Positions 11,844-22,708 of a DNA stretch of 33,013 nucleotides are shown piece by piece. Made by a program: the position numbers and the translations under genes. The notes below the pieces were generated by a model. That model ran no database searches, was not told the DNA's origin, and saw nothing but the letters and a program-made list of their open reading frames with translations. The stretch lies in the NCBI RefSeq assembly GCF_001945525.1, contig NZ_MPJW01000135.1, positions 1 to 33,013 on the forward strand, given 5' to 3'. Numbering within the stretch: position 1 is the stretch's first letter; every line of letters begins with the position of its first letter. This stretch comes from Ileibacterium valens (lineage in GTDB: Bacteria > Bacillota_I > Bacilli_A > Erysipelotrichales > Erysipelotrichaceae).

Positions 11844-11875
11844 AGAAGGTGGGGAATTTCCTCACCTTCTTTTTT
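11844..11875 (+). terminator. Intrinsic terminator after fba
   Basis: The stem AGAAGGTG/CACCTTCT (11844-11851, 11863-11870), with additional GGA/TCC pairing inside, is followed by a run of six T. Confidence 0.92.
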
Positions 11876-12351
11876 GCTTGTTTTACGAAGTTTTAAGCTT
11901 TTAAATGGCGTTCGATTGAAAAAAGAAGCCGCATATTATCCCTCCTCTTTATGTATGGACTTCATAAAAGCTTCAGATCGATTACAATTAAATAGACATT
12001 CAGAACTTTTTTGCCATTTCCTGAATCTGCTCATAGTTTTCCTTAGCATCATCTGGCACAATCTGATGTTATAAAATCTGCCCTTCAGGTTTTATAAATT
12101 TTATAAATATGAGAGCGGCCTCGGGAATTATATTTTTGAAAAGAGCGTGAAACAAAGGTGACCGAACAGTTTTGAATGAATGAAAATATTCAAATAAATG
12201 GTGATTTAACCAGAATATAGAAATCATTTTAGAAATCGAATCAGGATCTAATATCATTTGAATAAATAGACCTTATAAAGCAGGTCTGAAAAGATGGTCA
12301 AAGGTCGATTTGTATTTCTGTTATCTCTTCAACTTGAAGAAAGGACAAAAT
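11876..12351. other. Intergenic region between fba and the S9 peptidase gene
   Basis: No confident gene. It holds a perfect 9-base tandem repeat TTTATAAAT (12091-12108), a hairpin at 12071-12095 (10 pairs with one G-U, loop CCCTT) and a small hairpin AGACCT/AGGTCT (12268-12287). On the minus strand a strong AGGAGGG (11946-11940) precedes a 13-codon frame (11934-11893), discussed in the findings. I could not pick a convincing promoter for the downstream peptidase. Confidence 0.5.
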
Positions 12352-14355
12352 ATGAGTGAATTAAAACCGATCAGCGTGCGCGATCTGCTCGAGTTCTCTT
12401 TCTATGGAGATCTTAAAACCTGCGGATCCCGCATCCTGTTTATCCAGGCAAAGGCCGATGAAAAGAAAAACTATATTCGTGATCTGATGGAATATCATCC
12501 TGAATCCGGAAAGATTACCCAGCTGACTCACCGCGGCAATATCGGCACTTATCAGTTCAGAGATGAAAATTCTGTTTATTTCTGTCTGCCTGAACAAAGT
12601 AATGAAAACAATAAGAACCAGGAAAATAAAGAAGAAGCTTCAACAGGAACTTCGCTGATGCTTTTGCCCCTTGATGGCGGAGAGGCTTATCAGGAAGATG
12701 TTCTGGATCTGAAGGGGGCAAGTATTGCTGCTGTTCTTGAAGATGGAAAGCTTTTAATGAGTTACTCCTGGAAAGAAGAGGATGAAGCATTCAAGGAAGA
12801 TGCAGATTACGAAGTCCTTGATGAATCTCCATGGTATTTCAATGGATCTGGTTTTATTCGTCATGAAAGAAACGGCCTGGCTTTATATGATCCAAAGACT
12901 AAGGCTCTTGATAAGGATCTGACGGGCAAACTTAATGTTTCTGCAGTTTCAGCCTTTAAAAATAAAATCTATTTTTCAGGATCCGAAATGAAAACTGTCG
13001 CGGCTTTGCAGGAAAGCGTGTTTCAGCTCGATCTGGATACAAAAAAAGTCACTGAACTTACGGCAAAGAAAAAGATGAGCATCTTTTCTGTTAAAGCCTG
13101 TGAAAAAGGTGTGTTTATTATTGGAAGTGAAAATAAGCGATATGGTCTGAACGAAAATCCATATATCTATCTTCTGAATCCAGAAACCGGCAGCTTTGAT
13201 GGAATCCTCGGTTGGGATGAGGCCTATGGAAATACGGTTGGAACGGACTGCGCTGTTGTTGGTGGAAATTCGGATTTCATTGATCCATATACTTCAGTCC
13301 TGAGCTTTGTCAGCACAATCGTGGATCATAATAATCTTTATACCTTTGACGGCAGCATTCTTCATGAAGTCCTTGAGTGGCAGGGAACAATTCATTCGTT
13401 TGGATATGCCAATGAAACGCTGTACTTTATCGGAGCTGCGGAAAATGAGCTTCAGCAGCTCTATCGTTTAGAAGCAGGAAGACCTGTTGTTTTATCAGAC
13501 TTTAACGAACTGTTAAAGGAACGCTACGTCGCCAAAGTCAAACCTATCATTTATTTAAACTATGCCAATGAAGATCAGATGGGCTGGGTTTTATATCCAA
13601 AGGACTTTGATCCAAAGAAGACTTATCCAGGTATTCTGGATATTCATGGAGGTCCAAAAACGGTTTACGGCAAAGTGTTCTACCATGAAATGCAGTTATG
13701 GGCATCCGAAGGATATTTTGTTTTCTTCTGTAACCCATTTGGTGCAGATGGTCAGGGCAATGCTTATGCCGATCTGCGGGGAAAATATGGAACAGACGAT
13801 TTTAAGGATCTGATGAACTTTACAGATGCTGTATTAAGAGAAGTTCCAAATCTTGATCCGAACAGACTGAGTGTGACTGGAGGAAGCTATGGCGGATTTA
13901 TGACCAACTGGATTATTGGGCATACTGACCGCTTTAAAGCTGCGGTCTCACAGCGCTCCATTTCAAACTGGATTTCTTTCTATGGAACCAGCGATATTGG
14001 ACCAGAGTTTACTGTAGATCAGCAGGCTGCCGGTTTAGAGCATGTCTCAAAACTATGGGAGCATTCACCATTGGCCTATGCCAGTCAGATTGTCACTCCG
14101 ACTCTGTTTATTCATTCAGATGAAGATTACCGATGTCCGCTCGAACAGGGAATGCAGATGATGCAGTCGATTCTGCAAAAGGGCGTTCCGACAAGAATGT
14201 GCCTTTTCCATGGTGAAAACCACGACTTATCCAGAACGGGTCAGGTAAAACACCGTCTGCGCCGACTGGACGAAATCACCCGCTGGATGAAAAAGTACAA
14301 TCCGGTAAATCATTCGATAAATAACGAAGGGAAGAAGGAGGGAAATCCGCAATGA
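12352..14355 (+). CDS. S9-family serine peptidase (prolyl oligopeptidase / acylaminoacyl-peptidase type)
   Basis: A cytoplasmic peptidase of the COG1506 type, probably cleaving short peptides. Of 667 residues, the first ~400 look like a beta-propeller that gates the active site; the C-terminal ~250 form an alpha/beta hydrolase. The catalytic triad is visible: Ser512 in GGSYGGF, Asp592 in HSDEDYRCP and His624 in GENHDLS. The oxyanion region is DIHGGPK. There is no signal peptide. The ATG at 12352 has AAAGGA 6 bases upstream; an in-frame ATG at 12310 has no ribosome-binding site. The stop overlaps the start of the EIIA-like gene (ATGA). Exact substrate cannot be told. Confidence 0.9.
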   Translation: MSELKPISVRDLLEFSFYGDLKTCGSRILFIQAKADEKKNYIRDLMEYHPESGKITQLTHRGNIGTYQFRDENSVYFCLPEQSNENNKNQENKEEASTGTSLMLLPLDGGEAYQEDVLDLKGASIAAVLEDGKLLMSYSWKEEDEAFKEDADYEVLDESPWYFNGSGFIRHERNGLALYDPKTKALDKDLTGKLNVSAVSAFKNKIYFSGSEMKTVAALQESVFQLDLDTKKVTELTAKKKMSIFSVKACEKGVFIIGSENKRYGLNENPYIYLLNPETGSFDGILGWDEAYGNTVGTDCAVVGGNSDFIDPYTSVLSFVSTIVDHNNLYTFDGSILHEVLEWQGTIHSFGYANETLYFIGAAENELQQLYRLEAGRPVVLSDFNELLKERYVAKVKPIIYLNYANEDQMGWVLYPKDFDPKKTYPGILDIHGGPKTVYGKVFYHEMQLWASEGYFVFFCNPFGADGQGNAYADLRGKYGTDDFKDLMNFTDAVLREVPNLDPNRLSVTGGSYGGFMTNWIIGHTDRFKAAVSQRSISNWISFYGTSDIGPEFTVDQQAAGLEHVSKLWEHSPLAYASQIVTPTLFIHSDEDYRCPLEQGMQMMQSILQKGVPTRMCLFHGENHDLSRTGQVKHRLRRLDEITRWMKKYNPVNHSINNEGKKEGNPQ

Positions 14356-14999
14356 AGCCGCAGGAACTGTCAGGAAACAGACAATCTGTAAAAGAGAATA
14401 CGGATAGGAAAAGAAAGCGTAAACCGGATTCTTCCTACCGTTCGACGCGCTCTGCAAAAGTGCAGAACATCAATGATAACCGCAATGCTTCTGCAAACAA
14501 AGCAGAAAACAGGAAACAGGAAGGCCGTAAAAAGGAAAAGCGGGTAGTCGACAAGCGGCTGTATGCCCCAGTCTCTGGAGATATCATTCCTTTATCGAGT
14601 GTAGCCGACCCAGTATTCGCTCAGAAGATGATGGGCGATGGAATCGCATTTTTACCCGAAGGGGATATGGTGGTTTCTCCCTGTTATGGAAGCGTTGCAA
14701 TGATCGCAAGAGCAAAAAATGCGGTTGGAATTGAGAATGATTACGGAGATCAGATTCTTGTTCACATCGGACTTGATACAATTGATTATAATGGAAAGGG
14801 AATAGAACTCCTCTGTTCGGAAGGACAAAGAGTTAAACCGGGAGTACCGCTTGTAAAGCTTGATCGGCGCTTTTTCGATTCAGTCAAAGCCGATCTGACA
14901 ATCCCGATGACTATTACAAATCTGGATTTTGGTGTCTATCAACCCCTCGAAGGAGACCGCGCTCAGGCAGGAAAAACGCCTGTTCTCGAACGCCGCTGA
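14352..14999 (+). CDS. Variant PTS EIIA (glucose-family) domain protein with basic N-terminal tail
   Basis: The C-terminal ~145 residues clearly match the glucose-family EIIA fold: YAPVSGDIIPL (71-81), DPVFAQKMMGDGIA (86-99), VHIGLDT (137-143) and EGQRVKPG (157-164). His138 matches E. coli His90, the phosphorylated residue. The position of the second active-site histidine (E. coli His75) is Asn123 (KNAVGIEND against HAFSIESD). The first ~68 residues are a highly basic, low-complexity tail absent from normal EIIA. No PTS permease, HPr or EI gene is nearby; the gene overlaps the S9 peptidase by 4 bases, with AAGGAGG upstream. It may therefore be a regulatory phospho-acceptor and not a sugar-transport component. 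The domain call is firm, the function open. Confidence 0.88.
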   Translation: MKPQELSGNRQSVKENTDRKRKRKPDSSYRSTRSAKVQNINDNRNASANKAENRKQEGRKKEKRVVDKRLYAPVSGDIIPLSSVADPVFAQKMMGDGIAFLPEGDMVVSPCYGSVAMIARAKNAVGIENDYGDQILVHIGLDTIDYNGKGIELLCSEGQRVKPGVPLVKLDRRFFDSVKADLTIPMTITNLDFGVYQPLEGDRAQAGKTPVLERR

Positions 15000-15010
15000 A
15001 TTCTGGATTA

Positions 15011-15039
15011 TTTACCGTTCGCAGCTTTTCGTGTATACT
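15011..15039 (+). promoter_or_regulatory. Possible promoter for murA, upstream of a terminator hairpin
   Basis: TTTACC (15011-15016), 17 bases, then TATACT (15034-15039). A transcript from here would begin near 15046 and run straight into the hairpin at 15048-15075. Confidence 0.45.
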
Positions 15040-15047
15040 TTCAAATT

Positions 15048-15075
15048 AAATGGTGGGGGAGACTCACCATTTTTT
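15048..15075 (+). terminator. Intrinsic terminator after the EIIA-like gene
   Basis: The arms AAATGGTG (15048-15055) and CACCATTT (15065-15072) pair perfectly, with T to 15075. A second small hairpin AAACGG-TAAT-CCGTTT (15085-15100) ends in TTTT. Confidence 0.8.
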
Positions 15076-16594: not shown

Positions 16595-17275
16595 ATGATT
16601 AAAGCGGCGATTCTTGAAAGAGAAAAAGAAAGCAAGGATATTATTTTTTTGCTTGGAGAATATTTCCGGGAAGTTGATTGGACCTTCCGGCATTTTTATA
16701 AAGCGAGTGAACTGGCAAAAGCAATGAAAAACGAGCAGTATCAGATTTTCGTATTTGATGAGATTTTTAAATCCCCTCGTTTAGAAAGTGTCTTTGTCCA
16801 TGATAATCCAACCGCAATCTTTATTTTTGTCTGTGAAAACCCTGAAGAAATCAAGAATGGAGATACGAGGGAGAGAATCTTTTATATTTCAAAGGCGGCG
16901 ATGACTGAAGATCTTGAAAAGATCCGTTCAATCATTGTTGGACTCGTCAGGCAAAAAGAAGTCTATTCCTTTACATATAACAGCATTCAGATTGATATTC
17001 CGATTGAAGATATTTTCTATATGGAAAAGATTGAGAAGAATGTCTACTTCTATACGCGTATTGGAACATTTCATCGCAGGCTGAATATGGTAAACCTTGA
17101 GGAATATTTCACCCGATACGGATTTATGCGTGTTCACGTCTCTTATATTGTAAATACGAAATATATAACTGGAATCTTTCACGATGAAGTGGAAATCAAT
17201 CGGGAAAAGCGGATTCCCTTATCTCGATCCCAAAAGAAAAAGAATCAACTGAAAGTCAGAAAGAAAACGACCTGA
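16595..17275 (+). CDS. Orphan LytTR-family transcriptional regulator with degenerate receiver domain
   Basis: The C-terminal half (about 120-215) is a LytTR DNA-binding domain, as in AgrA: IPIEDIFYMEKIEKNVYFYT, GTFHRRLNMVNLEEYF and MRVHVSYIVNTKYI are all typical. The N-terminal ~115 residues resemble a response-regulator receiver fold (strand AAILERE, then QIFVFDE around residue 50-56, and a Lys in YISKA), but the usual Asp-Asp pair at the first strand is Glu-Arg-Glu, so phosphorylation is doubtful. No histidine kinase is adjacent. The start has no ribosome-binding site and sits directly after a -10 box. The C-terminus is strongly basic. It may bind the nearby inverted repeats, but this is inference. 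Confidence 0.85.
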   Translation: MIKAAILEREKESKDIIFLLGEYFREVDWTFRHFYKASELAKAMKNEQYQIFVFDEIFKSPRLESVFVHDNPTAIFIFVCENPEEIKNGDTRERIFYISKAAMTEDLEKIRSIIVGLVRQKEVYSFTYNSIQIDIPIEDIFYMEKIEKNVYFYTRIGTFHRRLNMVNLEEYFTRYGFMRVHVSYIVNTKYITGIFHDEVEINREKRIPLSRSQKKKNQLKVRKKTT

Positions 17276-22517: not shown

Positions 22518-22540
22518 GGGCAATTGGGAAATGATTTTCC

Positions 22541-22706
22541 TGATAGCCCTCCTGCACGTTATCTGCAGACAGTCCGACATATTTTCTATGTCGGCCCACC
22601 ATCACGATCATGCCTGATCGGACAGTTCGGCGATGTCGCTCGATTTAAACCTCAGACGCCTGCCGGCTTGGTTCAAATCAGTCTCTACCGCAACCTCTAT
22701 CTTGGC
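22541..22706 (-). ncRNA. Lysine riboswitch (L-box aptamer)
   Basis: On the minus strand the conserved blocks of the lysine aptamer are visible in order: GATAGAGGTTGCGG (22701-22688), then further downstream CATCGCCGAAC, GTGGGCCGACAT, and the closing GGAGGGCTATC (22552-22542). GATAG and CTATC form helix P1. Inner hairpins include CCGACATA/TATGTCGG. With the terminator at 22517-22491 this is a transcriptional OFF switch: lysine binding stabilises P1 and frees the terminator. It should control lysA-dapF-dapA-dapB, and dapH only by readthrough. Confidence 0.93.
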
Positions 22707-22708
22707 AA

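Follow-up and report, generated by a model that had tools for sequence, protein, structure and literature searches.

An orphan EIIA of the glucose type with asparagine at the His75 position, coupled to an S9 peptidase gene in Ileibacterium valens: a possible regulatory protein

Classical mutagenesis separates the accepting of phosphate by EIIA-Glc (His90) from its passing on (His75). In E. coli, EIIA-Glc requires His75 for phosphate transfer to EIIB but can accept phosphate from HPr without it. In Firmicutes, PTS regulation usually operates via HPr and CcpA. EIIA-Glc also acts by binding, as in the stimulation of FrsA and the binding to the peptidase IDE (PMC6877527), and the structure of the EIIA-FrsA complex was deposited as PDB 3our. 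The H75Q variant of Vibrio IIA-Glc has been used as a dephospho form (PMC9040800). The window analysed here is the whole stretch of 33,013 nucleotides from Ileibacterium valens (contig NZ_MPJW01000135.1, positions 1 to 33,013), and all of its features given below lie on the plus strand except where the minus strand is named. It encodes an orphan EIIA of the Glc type. We tentatively read this protein as a regulatory EIIA that is linked to HPr, feeds no permease and may act on a co-transcribed S9 peptidase, and our confidence in this reading falls somewhat short of even. No report of this EIIA was found in the literature on orphan EIIAs or on the PTS of Erysipelotrichaceae.

The gene (14352-14999) encodes 215 residues and was assigned from its open reading frame, its match to the PF00358 profile and its EIIA-Glc fold. 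Residues 69-191 (14556-14924) correspond to the Pfam domain PTS_EIIA_1 (PF00358) with an E value of 1.5e-38. The score of 131.8 bits, against a cut-off of 27.2, covers positions 2-124 of the 127 in the profile, and the TIGR00830 score is 112 against a cut-off of 97.5. By profile, the protein is a member of the PTS EIIA glucose family. The domain was predicted confidently in the AlphaFold2 model (pLDDT mostly >90). A Foldseek search with the model gave 2mp0, 1gpr, 3our and 1f3g as the closest PDB structures, all of them EIIA-Glc proteins, with E values around 1e-14 and an rmsd of 1.5-2.0. A Shine-Dalgarno sequence, AAGGAGG, is located at 14335-14341. A start at the GTG of codon 37 was considered and rejected because no ribosome-binding site was seen for it while the ATG has AAGGAGG, and because the MKP start is common to the S9-coupled orthologs.

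The overall identity to E. coli EIIA-Glc is 32%, and the active site was aligned without gaps to the EIIA-Glc proteins of E. coli and B. subtilis. The alignment confirmed the preliminary description of this DNA, which had placed Asn123 (codon AAT, 14718-14720) at the position of E. coli His75 and His138 (codon CAC, 14763-14765) at that of the phosphate-accepting His90. The Thr73 position is occupied by Ala121, and Asp38, Gly92 and Asp94 are retained. In the initial collection of loci, position 75 was His in 108 of 109 other EIIAs, counted without this genome's own copies and without a divergent paralog, and the single exception is an ortholog. Likewise, in a 28-sequence alignment His90 was invariant and position 75 was almost invariantly His. 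Since 108 of the 109 other loci carry His75, Asn123 is, by sequence comparison, a real departure that goes beyond ordinary EIIA variation.

Orthologs were searched family-wide, order-wide and in a sample of the class. Across 316 genomes of the order, the ortholog group was set sharply apart from other EIIAs, with scores of at least 278 bits against at most 168 bits. It consists of seven genomes from three genera of one family, namely this genome (G000), G028, and G003, G061, G062, G063 and G064 of one genus. Six of the members came from the searches and the seventh, G061, was read from its own locus. All seven genes lie at one locus, before murA, with fba upstream wherever the stretch read includes that site, and their products are 48-58% identical to the Ileibacterium valens protein. 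As far as seen, the orphan EIIA appears limited to a few related genera. His90 is retained in all seven. At position 75, G000 and G062 carry Asn, G003 and G063 carry Gln, and G064, G028 and G061 carry His. The preliminary description had named His in most close homologs as the result that would speak against it; this holds by half, as three of the seven orthologs keep His and four carry Asn or Gln, and the loss is not fixed within the group. Trees built from the EIIA and from its neighbouring genes join G003 to G063 and place G062 with G064 and G061; support for the placement of G028 is poor (56 and 77%). If His is taken as the ancestral state, these groupings imply that His75 was lost at least three times independently, always to an amide. 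Asp94, kept in Ileibacterium valens, is lost in the orthologs read from genus g4 (four-plus genomes), which could weaken phosphotransfer from HPr too.

The losses of His75, of Thr73 and, in g4, of Asp94, along with the lack of a detectable Glc-family EIIB in the genome, would also be expected of a decaying, functionless remnant of a former PTS operon. However, the reading frame is intact in six of the seven genomes (a frameshift was seen in the remaining one, a 58%-complete assembly), the ribosome-binding site is strong and the position is conserved. The C-terminal AGKTPVLERR and a basic core before the domain are also conserved among the orthologs, and dN is low (0.28-0.51) against a dS of 1.8 or saturated, which reflects purifying selection. 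A remnant is therefore considered very unlikely.

The domain is preceded by a basic tail of residues 1-68 (14352-14555), as judged from composition, the model and the comparison of orthologs. The first 69 residues contain 23 K/R vs 9 D/E and have a pI of 11.0, whereas the pI of the adjoining domain is 4.9. Residues 1-60 are predicted to be disordered, with block pLDDT values of ~42-57. No amphipathic N-terminal helix was found in the model, in which the strongly basic tail has low pLDDT. The very basic tail of ~68 residues that had been described is thus present, and its length is specific to Ileibacterium valens within the ortholog group, the tails being ~31 residues in G028 and 16-17 in the other orthologs. 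The shared part is restricted to the last ~13 residues, the basic core KRKEKRxPDKRL. Joint conservation, or joint evolution, of Asn and the long tail was rejected on this ground.

HPr (C256) and EI (C27) are both present in the genome. The EIIC search gave nine matches. Those examined comprised single EIICs with cellobiose-type EIIB/EIIA genes alongside, fusions to PTS_IIB, and one fructose-type EIIABC. The EIICs of the genome carry or adjoin EIIB of the lactose/cellobiose type, or EIIA/EIIB of the fructose type. No Glc-family EIIB (PF00367) was detected in this genome, whereas five control genomes and each of the six ortholog-bearing relatives gave matches in the same search. With the genome 98% complete in 291 contigs, it is possible but not likely that a PF00367 gene was missed. 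When five PTS families were searched in the genome, the contig was matched only at the EIIA itself, in agreement with the absence of PTS neighbours noted before. Because no PF00367 was detected in a near-complete genome that does have HPr and EI, an ordinary transport role appears improbable, as had been supposed. The genome does offer active-looking PTS permeases, EI and HPr to a working phosphocarrier in which Asn123 is tolerated and the phosphate is delivered in trans to some permease. But such a carrier would find no Glc-family EIIB, and the other permeases have EIIA/EIIB types of their own, so we give this alternative very little credence. A loss of His75 that followed the loss of EIIB was also considered and rejected, because PF00367 is present in genomes whose ortholog carries Gln or Asn.

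A second EIIA-like protein is encoded beside serC/serA (L033:8552-9196, G000:C255). It has a PF00358 score of 34 bits and an unrelated N-terminal part. In this family, Asn stands at the His75 position and Lys at that of His90, uniformly so in the relatives from G003, G061, G062 and G064. An earlier BLAST pairing of Ala with His90 was replaced by the gap-free alignment, which pairs Lys. By sequence, members of this conserved family cannot be phosphorylated at the His90 position. Non-phosphorylatable EIIAs are thus tolerated in the same genomes, and the orphan EIIA might be a binding protein that is never phosphorylated. Asn or Gln at position 75 would then lock a dephospho-like form, His138 would be kept for structure or metal binding, and the protein would be regulated by its level and not by the PTS state. 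The treatment of Vibrio H75Q as the dephospho form, which does not fit simple dead-end phosphorylation, is in line with this explanation, and so is the additional loss of Thr73 and, in genus g4, of Asp94. On the other hand, His90 is invariant in the seven orthologs while neighbouring active-site residues drift, and in E. coli biochemistry His75 is not required for accepting phosphate from HPr. A protein that is never phosphorylated is accordingly considered rather unlikely.

The gene upstream (12352-14355) encodes an S9 family peptidase of the alpha/beta hydrolase type, as indicated by its open reading frame, a PF00326 match (E 1.8e-45) and the presence of the GxSxGG motif. Its stop overlaps the EIIA start in the sequence ATGA (14352-14355), and the gene order at the locus is fba-[S9]-EIIA-murA. 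Sequence patterns delimit the genes further. A terminator-like hairpin lies between fba and S9 (11844-11870), and a promoter-like site with a weak match to the consensus lies upstream of S9 (12228-12257). The murA gene has its own promoter-like site, TTTACC-17-TATACT (15011-15039), and sites resembling TTTAC..TATAAT stand before murA in the relatives read as well. Between EIIA and murA, a hairpin followed by a U-run (15048-15072, z -2.85) likely marks the end of the S9-EIIA transcript. Together, the hairpin after fba, the murA promoter-like site and the hairpin between EIIA and murA suggest, as sequence patterns, that S9 and EIIA form a two-gene unit of which murA is not part. The U-run hairpin directly follows the murA promoter-like site, with a similar arrangement in G028 (L114:8524-8560), so its role might extend beyond termination to that of a leader attenuator for murA. 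An Rfam search at the EIIA locus gave no match. Elsewhere in the window, Rfam identified a lysine riboswitch (RF00168, 69.8 bits) at 22536-22707 on the minus strand, upstream of a lysA-dapF-dapA-dapB-dapH-like cluster on the same strand.

The peptidase gene directly precedes EIIA, overlapping or abutting it, in six of the seven orthologs. The coupling to an S9 peptidase in the preliminary description was thus borne out here by the start-stop overlap and in most relatives by the linkage, but the linkage is not strict in either direction. In G028, the EIIA gene adjoins fba and murA, and no S9 gene was found at the locus or in the 65%-complete genome. In G190, from another genus, the order is fba-S9-murA-LytTR without EIIA. 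Judging from the latter order, EIIA probably entered the locus downstream of an S9 gene that was already there, and the finding of S9 without EIIA in another genus indicates that the peptidase does not need EIIA. In a further genus (G024:C5, L202:5864-8756), a standalone EIIA with both histidines is convergent to an S9 gene two genes apart, a second EIIA-S9 neighbourhood with a different arrangement.

S9 could also be a mere operon neighbour, with MurA, FBA, the LytTR regulator, or nucleic acid bound through the basic tail as the actual partner. The genes for fba, murA and LytTR flank EIIA in the orthologs read, and the sole ortholog without S9 still adjoins fba and murA. However, murA is set apart by its own promoter-like site and by the hairpin between it and EIIA, and fba-S9-murA exists without EIIA, so gene order alone proves nothing. 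We consider a partner other than S9 rather improbable. The LytTR-type DNA-binding protein (16595-17275, plus strand) is receiver-like, though diverged, in its N-terminal part. Its gene has no sensor kinase gene beside it and is conserved behind murA in all relatives read. A link to murA and MurNAc recycling, prompted by an EIIBCA near a murA-murR-murQ-like cluster in G006, was rejected on two grounds: the murA gene of this locus is preceded by a promoter-like site of its own, and the protein in G006 is a permease fusion.

In the preferred reading of a regulatory, HPr-linked EIIA, His138 would be phosphorylated by HPr~P at low sugar uptake and high PEP. The phosphate would stop there, with the partner histidine now an amide and no Glc-family EIIB in the cell. 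The phospho or dephospho state would then set the binding of EIIA to a partner protein. The basic N-terminus would take the place of the classical amphipathic membrane helix and may help to dock the partner. From the shared two-gene transcript, the most likely partner would be the S9 peptidase, by analogy with Vibrio, where EIIA-Glc in its unphosphorylated state binds the alpha/beta hydrolase FrsA and also regulates the peptidase IDE. It is the most natural candidate at low-to-moderate probability, because S9 is independent of EIIA in other genomes. An invariant His90 combined with a repeatedly changed position 75 favours a protein that receives phosphate without the need to pass it on. Against such a switch stand the three orthologs that keep His75, the Glc-family EIIBs of the relatives, and the fact that the loss of His75 does not track the loss of EIIB. 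A bolder version holds that an HPr-phosphorylated, non-transferring EIIA serves a cytoplasmic S9 peptidase as its dedicated subunit or switch and links peptide turnover to sugar status, amides having been repeatedly selected in place of His75 so that the phosphate is held but not handed on. We consider this version doubtful.

The ortholog group amounts to a natural experiment, in which close relatives carry His, Gln or Asn at position 75 of one locus while His90 is invariant, and one genome has no detectable acceptor EIIB. The preferred reading, if correct, would show how a transport phosphocarrier becomes a pure signalling protein. It would also extend the range of PTS-controlled targets in Firmicutes to a peptidase.

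Among known systems, EIIA-Glc (Crr) of E. coli and IIA-Glc of B. subtilis share the fold as well as His90, Asp38, Asp94 and Gly92 with the orphan EIIA. The orphan differs from both by Asn at His75, Ala at Thr73, the peptidase coupling and the lack of a detected Glc-family EIIB in the genome. Its N-terminus is basic and disordered, whereas that of EIIA-Glc is an amphipathic helix. The Vibrio pairs EIIA-Glc-FrsA (3our) and EIIA-Glc-IDE are similar in that an EIIA-Glc-type protein acts on an alpha/beta hydrolase or a peptidase. However, the Vibrio EIIA has both histidines and additionally works as a phosphocarrier, neither FrsA nor IDE is an S9 peptidase, and the EIIA-S9 interaction suggested here is deduced from gene coupling alone. 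EIIA-Ntr and the incomplete regulatory PTS resemble the orphan, as read here, in having a phosphorylated EIIA with a regulatory role and no permease, but EIIA-Ntr is of a different EIIA fold family, PF00359. The nearest other EIIAs are encoded by standalone genes in beta-glucoside PTS operons of the same family (for example Traorella-type L176 and L175; G024 L116). Unlike the orphan, they keep both histidines and lie beside an EIIBC permease gene and an antiterminator-like gene; they are the likely source of the orphan's domain.
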